Assembly (NCBI RefSeq): GCF_000739695.1
Contig: NZ_BBIO01000021.1
Coordinates: 1-44,234, forward strand
Direction: 5' to 3'
DNA: 44,234 nt
DNA from: Tepidicaulis marinus
GTDB taxonomy: Bacteria > Pseudomonadota > Alphaproteobacteria > Parvibaculales > Parvibaculaceae
Position 1 is the stretch's first letter. Every line of letters begins with the position of its first letter. This document shows positions 21,912-43,812 of the stretch, piece by piece. The notes under the pieces were generated by a model. That model did not search any database and was not told the DNA's origin. It was given only the letters and a program-made list of their open reading frames with translations. Made by a program: the position numbers and the translations under genes.

Positions 21912-22073
21912 GAAGTGGGGAGCCGCCCTGGCCGTCGGAATCTGCTACCTCGGAGACCTACATAAGTAGGTGGGCGCCGTGTGCAGAAGGCCACGGCCAA
22001 CCGCAGGGACAGCTCCCTCGAAGAGCGTAAGGCCCCGAGCGTGTTTATTCCTAACGCACCGGGCAGCACCCCG
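21912..22073 (-). ncRNA. ssrS: 6S RNA
   Basis: 6S RNA mimics an open promoter and sequesters sigma-70 RNA polymerase in stationary phase. Support: location between zapA and the cyclo-ligase on the same strand, length near 160, and the alphaproteobacterial 6S-like sequence AATAAACACGCTCGGGGCC followed by TTACGCTCTTCGAGGGAGC. The terminal hairpin ACCTAC-TTAT-GTAGGT lies at 21957-21972. The ends can close through GAGCCG/CGGCTC-type pairing. Ends are approximate (within about 10 bases). It has its own promoter at 22079-22108. Confidence 0.85.
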
Positions 22074-40515: not shown

Positions 40516-41085
40516 TCAGTGCCGGTCCCAGCGCATCAGGCCTTTATCCATGGTTTCCTGGAAGAAGGCTTCCACCTGATCGAACTGGGCGGCGAGCGGC
40601 GAGCGCACCATATCCTCTTCTTCCTCGAAGACATCCGGCTCGTCGTTGAGTTGCTTGTCGAGCCGTTCGATCCGCTCATAGATCCGTACCGATTTTTCCA
40701 TCAGCGCGCGCAGCTCGTCCGGCAAGTCTTCCGACCCGCTCATCGGCTTGGAGCGCGCAACGGACTGCCCGCCGAGACGGTATTTGTCCTGCGCGGCATC
40801 TTCCGGCGTCATCTCGCCTTCAAAGACGGCTTTTTGAACCAGCAGCCAGGCGGCCACCTGCATGAGGCGCGTGGTGACGCGCATGCTTTCGGCCGCATAA
40901 GCAAGAGCGGCCATGCGGGGCAGAAGCTTGGCCTGCTCGCGGCCCGGCCCGTCCAGATAAGAGGCCGCCTCTTCTACAAGGCCCATGCCTTCACGGTAGG
41001 TACGTTGAAAAAGTTCCGAGCCGCCGAAAAGTTTCGCCATTGCCGCGGCGCCCGCGCTTTGAGATTCCCCGCCATGATACGTCAT
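40516..41085 (-). CDS. rcdA: RcdA, regulator of CtrA degradation (DUF1465)
   Basis: In Caulobacter RcdA is an adaptor that helps deliver the master regulator CtrA to ClpXP at the stalked pole. The family start MTYHGG lies at ATG 41085, preceded by AAGG; the longer frame from 41220 would include its promoter. The 189-residue product is helical: ELFQRTYREGMGLVEEAASYLDG (part ELFQRTYREGM, about 25-35), LLPRMAALAYAAESMRVTTRL and the acidic C-terminal DEPDVFEEEEDMV. The rcdA, DUF1192, oxidoreductase and trcR neighbourhood is recurrent in Rhizobiales. Confidence 0.88.
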   Translation of the reverse strand: MTYHGGESQSAGAAAMAKLFGGSELFQRTYREGMGLVEEAASYLDGPGREQAKLLPRMAALAYAAESMRVTTRLMQVAAWLLVQKAVFEGEMTPEDAAQDKYRLGGQSVARSKPMSGSEDLPDELRALMEKSVRIYERIERLDKQLNDEPDVFEEEEDMVRSPLAAQFDQVEAFFQETMDKGLMRWDRH

Positions 41086-41190
41086 CAGCCTTACTCCACT
41101 TGGCTTTAGCGGCCGCTGCCGGATTGTCCCAAAACGAAACGAGTATCCGGTGCGCGATTTCGACTCATCCCAGCCGGTTTTTCTATTCCG

Positions 41191-41220
41191 ACTATAAACG
41201 AGGAATCGTCCCGCCGTCAT
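41191..41220 (-). promoter_or_regulatory. Probable rcdA promoter
   Basis: On the minus strand ATGACG (41215-41220) and TATAGT (41191-41196) are 18 bases apart, about 105 bases before the rcdA ATG. GANTC methylation sites lie inside it (41203-41207) and downstream (41162-41166), consistent with CcrM-linked cell-cycle timing. Confidence 0.45.
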
Positions 41221-41311
41221 ACATCTGAGGACAGTTACATCAACAAACGTGCCAGGGAAGAAAGAGTTAGCAAAAGCCTAATGAAGTTTAGGGTGCGCAC
41301 CCAAGCTAGGC

Positions 41312-41341
41312 TCAAAAAAGAGCCGCGGAAGCCGCGGCTCA
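41312..41341 (-). terminator. Intrinsic terminator upstream of rcdA
   Basis: On the minus strand GAGCCGCGG-CTT-CCGCGGCTC is followed by TTTTTTG: a perfect 9-bp GC stem with a T-run. It is about 210 bases beyond the DUF1192 stop, so it more likely ends a separate RNA (see 41314-41416) than DUF1192 alone. Confidence 0.9.
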
Positions 41342-41416
41342 AGTTCTAACAGGGAGGCGTCGAACAGAGTGGATAGGAGCCACTCAAATCCATATGACTG
41401 GATTACGCAACGCTAC
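41314..41416 (-). ncRNA. Candidate small RNA between DUF1192 and rcdA
   Basis: A compact transcript of about 100 bases is predicted. Its order is: hairpin AATCC/GGATT (41387-41404); hairpin GAGTGG-CTCCTAT-CCACTC (41367-41385); a stretch GACGCCTCCCTGTTA held by GTTC/GAAC (41343-41365); then the strong terminator at 41314-41340. CUCCUAU and GCCUCCC in loops are anti-Shine-Dalgarno-like, the hallmark of several alphaproteobacterial sRNAs. A TAGAAT -10 (41423-41428) sets the start near 41416. No ORF covers it. I do not recognise the family. Confidence 0.6.
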
Positions 41417-41420
41417 AGTA

Positions 41421-41460
41421 CGATTCTAATACCTAATGAATCCCTAACGAAATGCCTAAT
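41421..41460 (-). promoter_or_regulatory. Promoter with phased TTAGG repeats and GANTC sites
   Basis: On the minus strand TAGAAT (41423-41428) is a 5/6 match to the -10 consensus, with no good -35. Where a -35 should be, TTAGG is repeated at 41455-41459, 41443-41447 and 41432-41436, spaced 12 and 11 bases, one helical turn. OmpR-class regulators, including CtrA (TTAA-N7-TTAA), bind direct repeats with 11-base spacing. Two GANTC sites (41422-41426 and 41438-41442) overlap the -10 and the repeats. The rest of the 332-bp gap (41221-41552) holds the sRNA, its terminator and the rcdA promoter. Confidence 0.5.
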
Positions 41461-41552
41461 TCGCAGTCAATGCGGTTCAATTTGCAACACTGCCTCTAAA
41501 AACCGCCGATTTCAGCGCTTTAATCCCCATAAACCGAAGGGAAAATAATCAT

Positions 41553-41744
41553 CTATTTGCGGAAAAAAGCTTCCGCAGCGTCACGGGAATTTTGCTTTTT
41601 ACCGATTTCGGTACTGATTCGTTCGATCTCGCCTTTCAAAACCTCGATCCGCTCGGTCAGTTCCTCGACGCTTTTCATCGAAAGATCCTCACGGATCAGC
41701 GCCTCCAGCGCTTCCGACCTCTTGCGCGGCTCCAAATCGTCCAT
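41553..41744 (-). CDS. DUF1192 small helical protein
   Basis: A 63-residue charged protein with a C-terminal coiled coil (MSKSVEELTERIEVLKGEIE-like; here MKSVEELTERIEVLKGEI, about residues 23-40), matching alphaproteobacterial DUF1192. GAGGAG lies 7 bases before ATG 41744. Function unknown; it commonly neighbours rcdA and a quinone oxidoreductase, as here. Confidence 0.8.
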   Translation of the reverse strand: MDDLEPRKRSEALEALIREDLSMKSVEELTERIEVLKGEIERISTEIGKKQNSRDAAEAFFRK

Positions 41745-41892: not shown

Positions 41893-42900
41893 ATGCCCAA
41901 GGTGCCCGAAAAAATGATCCGCATCGCCATCGCCGAGCCGGGCGGGCCCGAGCAGCTCAAACCCGAAGAGATTGCCACCCCCACCCCTGCCGCCGATGAA
42001 GTGCTGATCAAAATCGCGGCCGCCGGGCTCAACCGGGGCGACATCGTCCAGCGCCAGGGCTTTTACCCCCCGCCCCCCGGCGCCCCCGACACACCGGGCC
42101 TCGAGGTTTCCGGCACCGTCGTTGCCACCGGCGAAAATGTCAGCCGCTGGAAAGAGGGCGACGAGGTCTGCGCGCTGCTGGCCGGCGGGGGTTATGCGGA
42201 ATATTGCGCGGTGCATGAAGCTCATTGCCTGCCCGTTCCCAAAGGTGTGAGCCTGACCGAAGCCGCCGCCCTGCCGGAAGTCTATTTTACGGTCTGGACC
42301 AATGTTTTCGAGCGCGGCCAGCTCAAAGCGGGCGAAACGCTGCTCATCCATGGCGGCTCAAGCGGCATCGGCACGGCGGCCATTCAGCTTGCCTCGGCGC
42401 TTGGCACCCGGGTTTTCGTTACAGCGGGCACCGACGAAAAATGCCGGGTCTGCCAGACGCTTGGGGCGGAGCGCGCCATCAATTACAATGAAGAAGACTT
42501 CGTCCTCGTCACGAACGCGCTGACGGAGGGCAAAGGCGTCGACGTTATTTTCGACATGGTCGGCGGCCCTTACGTGCAGCGGAACATTTCCGCCGCCGCC
42601 CGCGACGGGCGCATCGTCAATATCGCCTATCAGGCAGGCTCCAAGGTCGAGCTCAACCTCCTGCCCATCATGCTCAAACGCCTGACCATGACGGGCTCGA
42701 CCCTGCGCGCCCGCTCCGTGGGCGAAAAAGCAGCGCTCGCCGAGGCGGTAAAGGCCAATGTCTGGCCGCTGATCGAGGCAGGCCGCCTCAAACCCGTCAT
42801 CCATGCCACCTTCCCCCTCGTCAAGGCGGGCGAGGCCCAGAAACTCATGGAAAGCTCCACCCATACGGGCAAAATCCTGCTTTTGCCGGAAGAAGCCTAG
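41893..42900 (+). CDS. NAD(P)H quinone oxidoreductase, PIG3 type
   Basis: A 335-residue zinc-independent medium-chain dehydrogenase/reductase. Features: GroES-like N-domain with GLNRGDIVQRQGFYPPPPG and PGLEVSGTV, and the nucleotide-binding LIHGGSSGIGTAAIQL (about 155-170). C-terminal PVIHATFPL and HTGKILLLP are family-typical. It reduces quinones by NADPH in relatives such as human TP53I3/PIG3. GAGGAGAG precedes the ATG. Divergent from DUF1192 with a 148-bp gap. Confidence 0.92.
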   Translation: MPKVPEKMIRIAIAEPGGPEQLKPEEIATPTPAADEVLIKIAAAGLNRGDIVQRQGFYPPPPGAPDTPGLEVSGTVVATGENVSRWKEGDEVCALLAGGGYAEYCAVHEAHCLPVPKGVSLTEAAALPEVYFTVWTNVFERGQLKAGETLLIHGGSSGIGTAAIQLASALGTRVFVTAGTDEKCRVCQTLGAERAINYNEEDFVLVTNALTEGKGVDVIFDMVGGPYVQRNISAAARDGRIVNIAYQAGSKVELNLLPIMLKRLTMTGSTLRARSVGEKAALAEAVKANVWPLIEAGRLKPVIHATFPLVKAGEAQKLMESSTHTGKILLLPEEA

Positions 42901-43038: not shown

Positions 43039-43812
43039 ATGTCACGGCCCCTTATGCCCAAGGCAACCGCCGTTTGGCTTGTAGACAACACCGCCCTTAC
43101 CTTCGACCAGATTGCCGATTTCTGCGGCCTGCATGCGCTGGAAATCAAAGGCATCGCGGACGGGGACGTGGCGCAGGGGATTAAAGGCCTCGATCCTGTC
43201 GCCGCCGGTCAGCTCACGCGCGCGGAAATCGAGCGCTGCCAGAAAGACAGCAGCGCCCGGCTGAAACTGTCCGAGAGCCAGCACGACCTGCCGGAAGTCA
43301 AACCGCGCAAGGGCCCGCGCTATACGCCGGTCTCCCGCCGTCAGGACCGCCCGGACGCCATTGCCTGGCTGCTGCGCCACCACCCGGAACTGACGGATGC
43401 GCAAGTGACGAAGCTTGTCGGCACCACCAAGCCGACGATCCAGTCGATCCGTGACCGCAGCCACTGGAACTCGCCCAACATCAAGCCGGTCGATCCCGTG
43501 ACGCTCGGTCTTTGCACACAGCTCGAACTTGACGCTGCCGTGCAGAAAGCCGCCCGCCGCGTCGAACGCGAGCATAAAAAGGCGGTGAAGGAAGGCCGTG
43601 CGGTCGAAACGCTGCTGCCCGCCGCCCAGACCACGGCGGAAGAGCCGGCCGAGGAAGAACGCGAGAAGCGCGCGCCGAGCGCCGCGGAAGCTTTCTCCCG
43701 CCTCAACAACCCGGTGCAGGAAGAAGAAGAGCCGTCCTATGACGCCGACAGCGTCTTTTCCAAATTGAAAGACCTGAAAAAAGACGATGAGGAGGAAGAA
43801 GACAAGGAGTGA
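43039..43812 (+). CDS. trcR: TrcR-type cell-cycle regulator (DUF1013)
   Basis: A 257-residue cytoplasmic DNA-binding protein of the DUF1013 family, annotated in Caulobacter relatives as the cell-cycle transcriptional regulator TrcR. The first half has two helix-turn-helix-like segments: LTFDQIADFCGLHALEIKGI (residues 19-38) and ITWLLRHHPELTDAQVTKL-type (here AIAWLLRHHPELTDAQVTKL, about 108-127) followed by GTTKPTIQSIRDR. The C-terminal third is low complexity and very acidic (EEEEPSYDADSVFSKLKDL, then Asp/Glu-rich end). AAGGAGAG lies 8 bases before the ATG. Strong terminator follows. Confidence 0.88.
   Translation: MSRPLMPKATAVWLVDNTALTFDQIADFCGLHALEIKGIADGDVAQGIKGLDPVAAGQLTRAEIERCQKDSSARLKLSESQHDLPEVKPRKGPRYTPVSRRQDRPDAIAWLLRHHPELTDAQVTKLVGTTKPTIQSIRDRSHWNSPNIKPVDPVTLGLCTQLELDAAVQKAARRVEREHKKAVKEGRAVETLLPAAQTTAEEPAEEEREKRAPSAAEAFSRLNNPVQEEEEPSYDADSVFSKLKDLKKDDEEEEDKE

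Follow-up and report, generated by a model that had tools for sequence, protein, structure and literature searches.

A small-RNA gene occupies the junction between a DUF1192 gene and rcdA in Tepidicaulis marinus, and all three genes lie on the minus strand (Table 1). The window, i.e. the whole 44,234-nt stretch of DNA that was analysed, matches the Rfam family BjrC1505 (RF02356) at 41454-41313 (-) with 79.2 bits (cut-off 50, E = 2.1e-13). The match covers all 140 model positions and displays the family hairpins, the GCCUCCC stretch and the terminator. Since the score exceeds the cut-off, the sequence identifies the RNA as a member of a known family and the element as a real small-RNA gene; the original prediction had read it as a candidate and gave no family name. 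One copy is present in the genome. The terminator described by the original prediction is indeed a perfect 9-bp stem (41340-41320) followed by TTTTTT (41319-41314), and it has no ORF ahead of it, as no minus-strand ORF of at least 40 aa occurs across 41220-41553. The rcdA cluster of the window also contains a gene for TrcR, a transcriptional cell-cycle regulator (PF06242), at 43039-43812 (+). Elsewhere in the window, 6S RNA (RF00013, 61.7 bits) is found at 21916-22072 (-).

Table 1. Features of the rcdA region, in window coordinates
Feature	Positions	Strand	Basis or remark
rcdA (DUF1465), likely ATG 41085 (inferred)	40516..41109	-	PF07323, 3.8e-52, on ORF 40516-41220
RF02356 (BjrC1505) match	41313..41454	-	Rfam covariance score
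Predicted RNA, ~95 nt, start inferred	41314..41408	-	GCGTAATCC, conserved past the -10 within the window's family; terminator end
Hairpin 4, intrinsic terminator with U6	41314..41340	-	8/9 pairs changed on both sides
Nearly invariant anti-Shine-Dalgarno (anti-SD) stretch, possible hairpin 3, UUCGACG[CCUCCC]UGUUAGAA	41344..41364	-	Invariant columns
Hairpin 2, loop CTCCTAT (41379-41373), covarying stem	41367..41385	-	6/6 pairs changed on both sides
Hairpin 1, variable sequence, covarying	41387..41404	-	Pairs changed on both sides: main helix 5/5, extension 1/1
Probable -10, TACTGT	41415..41420	-	12 nt after the box; TANNGT at equal spacing in relatives
CtrA-type box TTAG-GGATTCA-TTAG, ~-39 to -25	41433..41447	-	Register shared with relatives' boxes (6-8 of 8)
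DUF1192 gene, upstream neighbour	41553..41744	-	PF06698, 1e-21
Quinone-oxidoreductase-like gene (QOR), recurrent neighbour	41893..42900	+	PF00107/PF08240; also a neighbour in other genomes

RF02356 is present in 35 of the 40 genomes of the window's family, including all 27 that are complete and clean; an order-level search returned the same 40 genomes. Together with the above-cut-off score and the covarying stems discussed below, this bears out the prediction of a small RNA gene. In an even draw of 387 genomes from the class, 45 have an RF02356 match, 19 of them above the cut-off. A covariance model built without the promoter part (R1) matches 97/387 class genomes at E <= 0.001. Its weak matches (33-43 bits) away from the rcdA locus are doubtful, being mostly boxless and looking like other RNAs. 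Seven such boxless weak matches (L142, L143, L145, L147, L149, L151 and L152) share TTGC/TGCA-type repeats near their start and possibly represent another small RNA family. Extra RNA copies were seen at L030 (genome G319), at L137 and contig C10 of genome G178, and at L138 (genome G001), the last being a second site away from the rcdA cluster; each extra copy read (two in L030, L137 and L138) has a perfect TTAA-N7-TTAA box.

The original prediction had placed the RNA beside the gene for CtrA degradation; rcdA (PF07323) does adjoin it, and the arrangement recurs across relatives. DUF1192 and rcdA both adjoin the RNA in 30/30 family loci read. The order QOR-DUF1192-RNA-rcdA-L31 recurs in the class, with TrcR beyond QOR in some genomes; the cluster TrcR-QOR-DUF1192-RNA-rcdA-L31, whole or partial, was also seen in distant genomes. 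Of the 113 R1 matches, 39, from 37 genomes, share a contig with rcdA and are at most 7 kb from it, all of them upstream and on the rcdA strand; the 7-kb limit is our choice, and five of the six matches beyond 3 kb score <47 bits and may be due to chance. RcdA (PF07323) was detected in 141/374 class genomes; under strict filters, R1 matches no farther than 7 kb from rcdA in only 37 of them, the RcdA and R1 counts resting on slightly different genome draws. Thus, most rcdA genomes have no detected neighbouring copy. In a named set, whose loci were picked by the RcdA protein alone and the RNA then located with the promoter-free model, 26 of the best 80 loci carry the RNA, always on the rcdA strand, and the RcdA match begins 99-509 nt downstream of it. 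Carriers include Parvibaculum, Stappia, Roseibium/Labrenzia, Chelatococcus, Breoghania, Aestuariivirga, Taklimakanibacter and Phreatobacter; two named loci (L153 and L154) look identical to loci of the family set (L034 and L054). By RcdA similarity among these best 80 loci, the window appears to lie near Parvibaculum. The RNA was not matched in the Caulobacter, Phenylobacterium, other Caulobacteraceae and Caulobacterales, Maricaulis, Hyphomonadaceae and Robiginitomaculum records of the best 80 loci. At 15 Caulobacterales-type loci, the ~700 nt that precede the rcdA match hold a 7/8 box without CCTCC in three cases and both in none. Overall, the distribution of sequences supports an old association of the RNA with rcdA.

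For the 103-nt RNA of the minus strand (41416-41314), the folding energy is -37.5 kcal/mol, compared with -24.7 +/- 3.0 for shuffled sequences (z = -4.2, 0/200 shuffles as good). In the covariation alignment (82 aligned matches, 81 distinct), 90.1% of cells are paired and 20/26 pairs have changes on both sides; the alignment was fitted to the model structure and hence leans towards it. None of 500 shuffles reaches any of these measures, and slid controls are 38-48% paired. Compensatory changes in relatives, the check proposed for the prediction, are thus found in hairpins 1, 2 and 4, with 75-77% of the hairpin 1 cells paired. Hairpin 3 is different. Its pairing is possible, and none of its five pairs has changes on both sides, each being invariant or changed on one side. 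The UUGACGCCUCCCUGUU stretch is almost invariant across the family alignment, i.e. held at the sequence level. In the minimum-energy fold of the window RNA, the first letters of GCCTCCC pair with the RNA 5' end and CUCCC is free. When eight relatives were folded, CCUCCC was in a hairpin loop in three, free in one and paired in its 5' part as in the window in four. A free CUCCC stretch is therefore the better supported model, because the pairs of hairpin 3 lack double changes and only 3/8 relatives fold in that way. Of the two exposed loops originally predicted, CUCCUAU (CTCCTAT in the DNA) does lie in a hairpin loop, whereas GCCUCCC is only partly exposed. The hairpin 2 loop is anti-SD-like in certain lineages only, CUCCUAU being lineage-specific; the general anti-SD element is the CUCCC stretch.

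The promoter has a conserved architecture. The published CtrA consensus is TTAA-N7-TTAA (PMC4287350, PMC12403871), and the window box, TTAGGGATTCATTAG, is a degenerate version of it (TTAG-N7-TTAG, 6/8 matches) that lies in the family register. It is formed by the second and third of the three TTAGG repeats of the original prediction, which start at 41459, 41447 and 41436 with spacings of 12 and 11; the first repeat is outside the conserved element. TANNGT (TAGGGT, TATTGT or TACTGT) sits exactly 12 nt past the box in 24/30 family loci, 6-7 nt ahead of a conserved GCG(U)AAUCC. In the named loci outside Parvibaculum, TANNNT lies 11-13 nt past the box in just 13/24. TAGAAT (41428-41423), formerly taken as the -10, is present, but the conserved register favours TACTGT. 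This register also moves the probable start from near 41416, as first proposed, to near 41408. The 5' part of the RF02356 consensus, UUuACggccuAUUaa, is itself a CtrA-type box (TTTA-N7-TTAA), suggesting that promoter DNA forms part of the Rfam model. Model positions 1-45 appear to hold this DNA, and the first ~45 positions would thus lie outside the RNA; searches with RF02356 therefore favour loci that keep the box.

Box counts were made in two sets, in both of which related genomes are not independent. In the 26 RcdA-selected RNA loci of the named set, all have a box of at least 6/8 (7.1 expected from dinucleotide shuffles), 24 reach at least 7/8 (1.4 expected) and six are perfect (0.1 expected); 0/1068 control 40-mers from the RcdA-selected loci, mostly coding DNA, reach 7/8. 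For the class set, 70 of the 113 R1 matches were read as loci and the 24 without GAYGCCTC were dropped ahead of the count. Of the remaining 46, 39 reach at least 7/8 against 2.7 expected, and the perfect ones number 18 against 0.2 expected; this set is partly biased because many members were first found with the box-containing Rfam model. Near rcdA, 30 of 37 R1 loci read have at least 7/8, six have 6 and one (L126) has 4. A good box is missing from L133, L131 and L126. The window's genome encodes both CtrA and GcrA, and perfect boxes are rare in it, with 26 in 3.48 Mb compared with 20 for a reversed control pattern. Collectively, the fixed-register box in relatives supports a CtrA-type promoter, in line with the predicted CtrA activation. 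In the window's genus, CtrA control is less sure than in relatives, since its own box matches only 6/8, and this degenerate box is presumed to be active.

Two GANTC sites overlap the region, as originally described (41442-41438 and 41426-41422). The timing by CcrM methylation that was read from them does not hold as a family trait and was rejected, because only two of 30 family loci, both from the window's genus, carry GANTC near the promoter; any such site is present in 7/26 named loci. CcrM timing within the window's genus alone is possible.

Published data on Sinorhizobium meliloti touch this locus directly. CtrA gives a ChIP signal at the rcdA promoter region, yet rcdA is reported as unresponsive to CtrA depletion (PMC4433202), and a CtrA motif is reported upstream of an rcdA start site (PMC3616915). 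For agrobacteria, possible CtrA sites are described ahead of rcdA and other genes, farther upstream than in Caulobacter (PMC10469942). The S. meliloti DUF1192-rcdA gap (L253) contains TTAACCGCAAATTAA, a hairpin, CUCCCUGUU and a terminator, i.e. a diverged RNA that scores below threshold (RF02356, 27.2 bits against a cut-off of 50; R1, 19.3 bits). A second perfect CtrA-type box, TTAACCCTTTCTTAA, lies between this RNA and rcdA (L253 3803-3817). A second perfect box before rcdA was likewise seen in Shinella (L255). As this second box directly precedes rcdA, it could account for the S. meliloti ChIP peak; the published signal may stem from the RNA, from rcdA or from both. A 3.7-Mb record of S. meliloti that bears the title pSymB (CP090106.1) carries rcdA, DUF1192 and rpmE, and for this reason may be a chromosome under a plasmid label.

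From these features it is tempting to propose that BjrC1505 is a chromosomal, trans-acting RNA of ~95 nt, activated by CtrA, that blocks Shine-Dalgarno sites through CCUCCC and is separate from rcdA, a reading that we consider rather probable. The CtrA-type box would overlie the -35 of the RNA promoter, and phosphorylated CtrA would most likely turn the RNA on late in the cycle, at high CtrA levels. The transcript would end at its own terminator ahead of rcdA and act apart from it. Through its near-invariant CCUCCC stretch, the RNA would most likely bind target mRNAs at their Shine-Dalgarno region and prevent their translation, a role that we infer from the invariance itself.

Conversely, the element could be a leader or attenuator of rcdA, with the CtrA box driving rcdA and the hairpins and terminator tuning read-through. 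The constant position upstream of rcdA on the same strand (39/39 matches within 7 kb and 26/26 named-set RNAs) agrees with this, and CtrA boxes beside rcdA are known to serve another purpose, as CtrA directly activates rcdA itself in Caulobacter (PMC4433202, PMC4287350). However, the box goes with the RNA. Among 12 strong matches (at least 55 bits) without an adjoining rcdA, 11 keep a 7-8/8 box (L008-L010, L012, L016, L025, L027-L029, L132 and L138; the exception is L133), a count that leaves out L137 and L021 (contig ends) and L018 and L026 (rcdA adjacent by tblastn). In L008-L010, rcdA is 42-46 kb away, and PF07323 finds none in G001 (L012, L138). In G319, each of the two tandem RNA copies carries a perfect box. 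Well-supported cases show a gap between RNA and rcdA of anything from ~90 nt to 1.5 kb; the terminators, with U5-8, are strong, and no conserved antiterminator was seen in the loci read. In S. meliloti, rcdA does not answer to CtrA depletion in the available account (PMC4433202). A simple rcdA leader is therefore disfavoured and, in our estimation, very unlikely. It is a little less unlikely that a different OmpR-type regulator reads the box, or that CtrA no longer does so in the window's genus, and that the RNA answers another signal. The TTAG-N7-TTAG form of the window box and palindromic variants such as TTTACCTTTTGGTAAA in some lineages are in keeping with such a switch, but sites in relatives centre on TTAA-N7-TTAA, which is the CtrA consensus (PMC12403871, PMC4287350), and the window's genome encodes CtrA.

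A further alternative is an RNA that acts like CcnA of Caulobacter, a CtrA-activated RNA feeding back on the translation of ctrA and gcrA. The same design, a C-rich loop under a CtrA-dependent promoter, would apply to both; CcnA is a cell-cycle ncRNA for which a CtrA site is predicted (PMC8959179). Against this, the start regions of ctrA (30) and gcrA (28), taken from -60 to +30, with one family version of the stretch standing for every genome, pair with the RNA no better than shuffled sequence. Moreover, CcnA targets ctrA and gcrA from a different locus, the replication origin instead of rcdA, and is 182 nt long (PMC4287350). We judge feedback of this type to be quite improbable. The start regions of rcdA (26) also pair no better than composition shuffles, with the start crudely set at the nearest in-frame ATG or else at the match start. 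For the trans-acting RNA that we prefer, a sequence exactly complementary to the 16-nt anti-SD stretch, wobble pairs allowed, occurs at 58 places in the 40 family genomes, 33 of which are the opposite strand of the RNA gene itself. Three other complement motifs recur within genera: one was seen in four g4 genomes, another in both members of the window's genus and a third in five g4 genomes, the sites lying in G000, G420 and g4. These recurrent sites are possible targets or coding coincidences. Among the matches listed, ACAGGGAGG-N3-10-ATG gives many scattered ones.

Several described sRNAs resemble BjrC1505 in part. EcpR1 of S. meliloti (SmelC291) is a conserved cell-cycle-linked sRNA with a conserved loop, but it is located by divK-pleD and rpmG, is linked to the stringent response and has the loop UCCGCCGCAUCU, as opposed to the DUF1192-rcdA locus and the GCCUCCC stretch of the window. 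GspR of S. meliloti (SmelC775) is an sRNA that acts on ctrA, but is reported for Sinorhizobium only, between SMc03844 and SMc03845. According to the available descriptions, EcpR1, GspR and CcnA occupy different loci and were rejected as the same gene. Agrobacterium PmaR was likewise rejected, as it is described on the circular chromosome and as restricted to Agrobacterium and one Rhizobium. SorY, SorX and mmgR (suhB) all have a CUCCCU stretch ahead of the terminator, as does the window RNA; their models match it at 26.7, 22.4 and 17.9 bits, far under the cut-offs of 111, 46.6 and 41, and these covariance scores provide no sign of a shared origin.

In print, BjrC1505 was met as a table entry in a Herbaspirillum study, in the portion of that source available. 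The literature searched, to which most subscription papers and supplements did not belong, states no CtrA link, rcdA link, target or function for BjrC1505/RF02356 and, including the accessible text of PMC4842269 and PMC7143759, does not describe this RNA as a CtrA target or rcdA neighbour. What is new here, relative to that literature, is a BjrC1505 promoter with a CtrA-type TTAA-N7-TTAA box at a fixed register. The fixed box and the rcdA link place BjrC1505 in the cell-cycle circuit, with a candidate regulator and a likely time at which it acts. They also offer a testable explanation of how CtrA occupies the rcdA region of S. meliloti without changing rcdA expression (PMC4433202). More broadly, across much of the Alphaproteobacteria CtrA may act through an RNA arm of old standing, an idea for which we see an even chance. 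In this arm, CtrA would directly drive a dedicated anti-SD sRNA encoded beside its own degradation adaptor and would thereby silence mRNAs post-transcriptionally, besides switching promoters; the CtrA signal at S. meliloti rcdA would then be, at least in part, that of this RNA.
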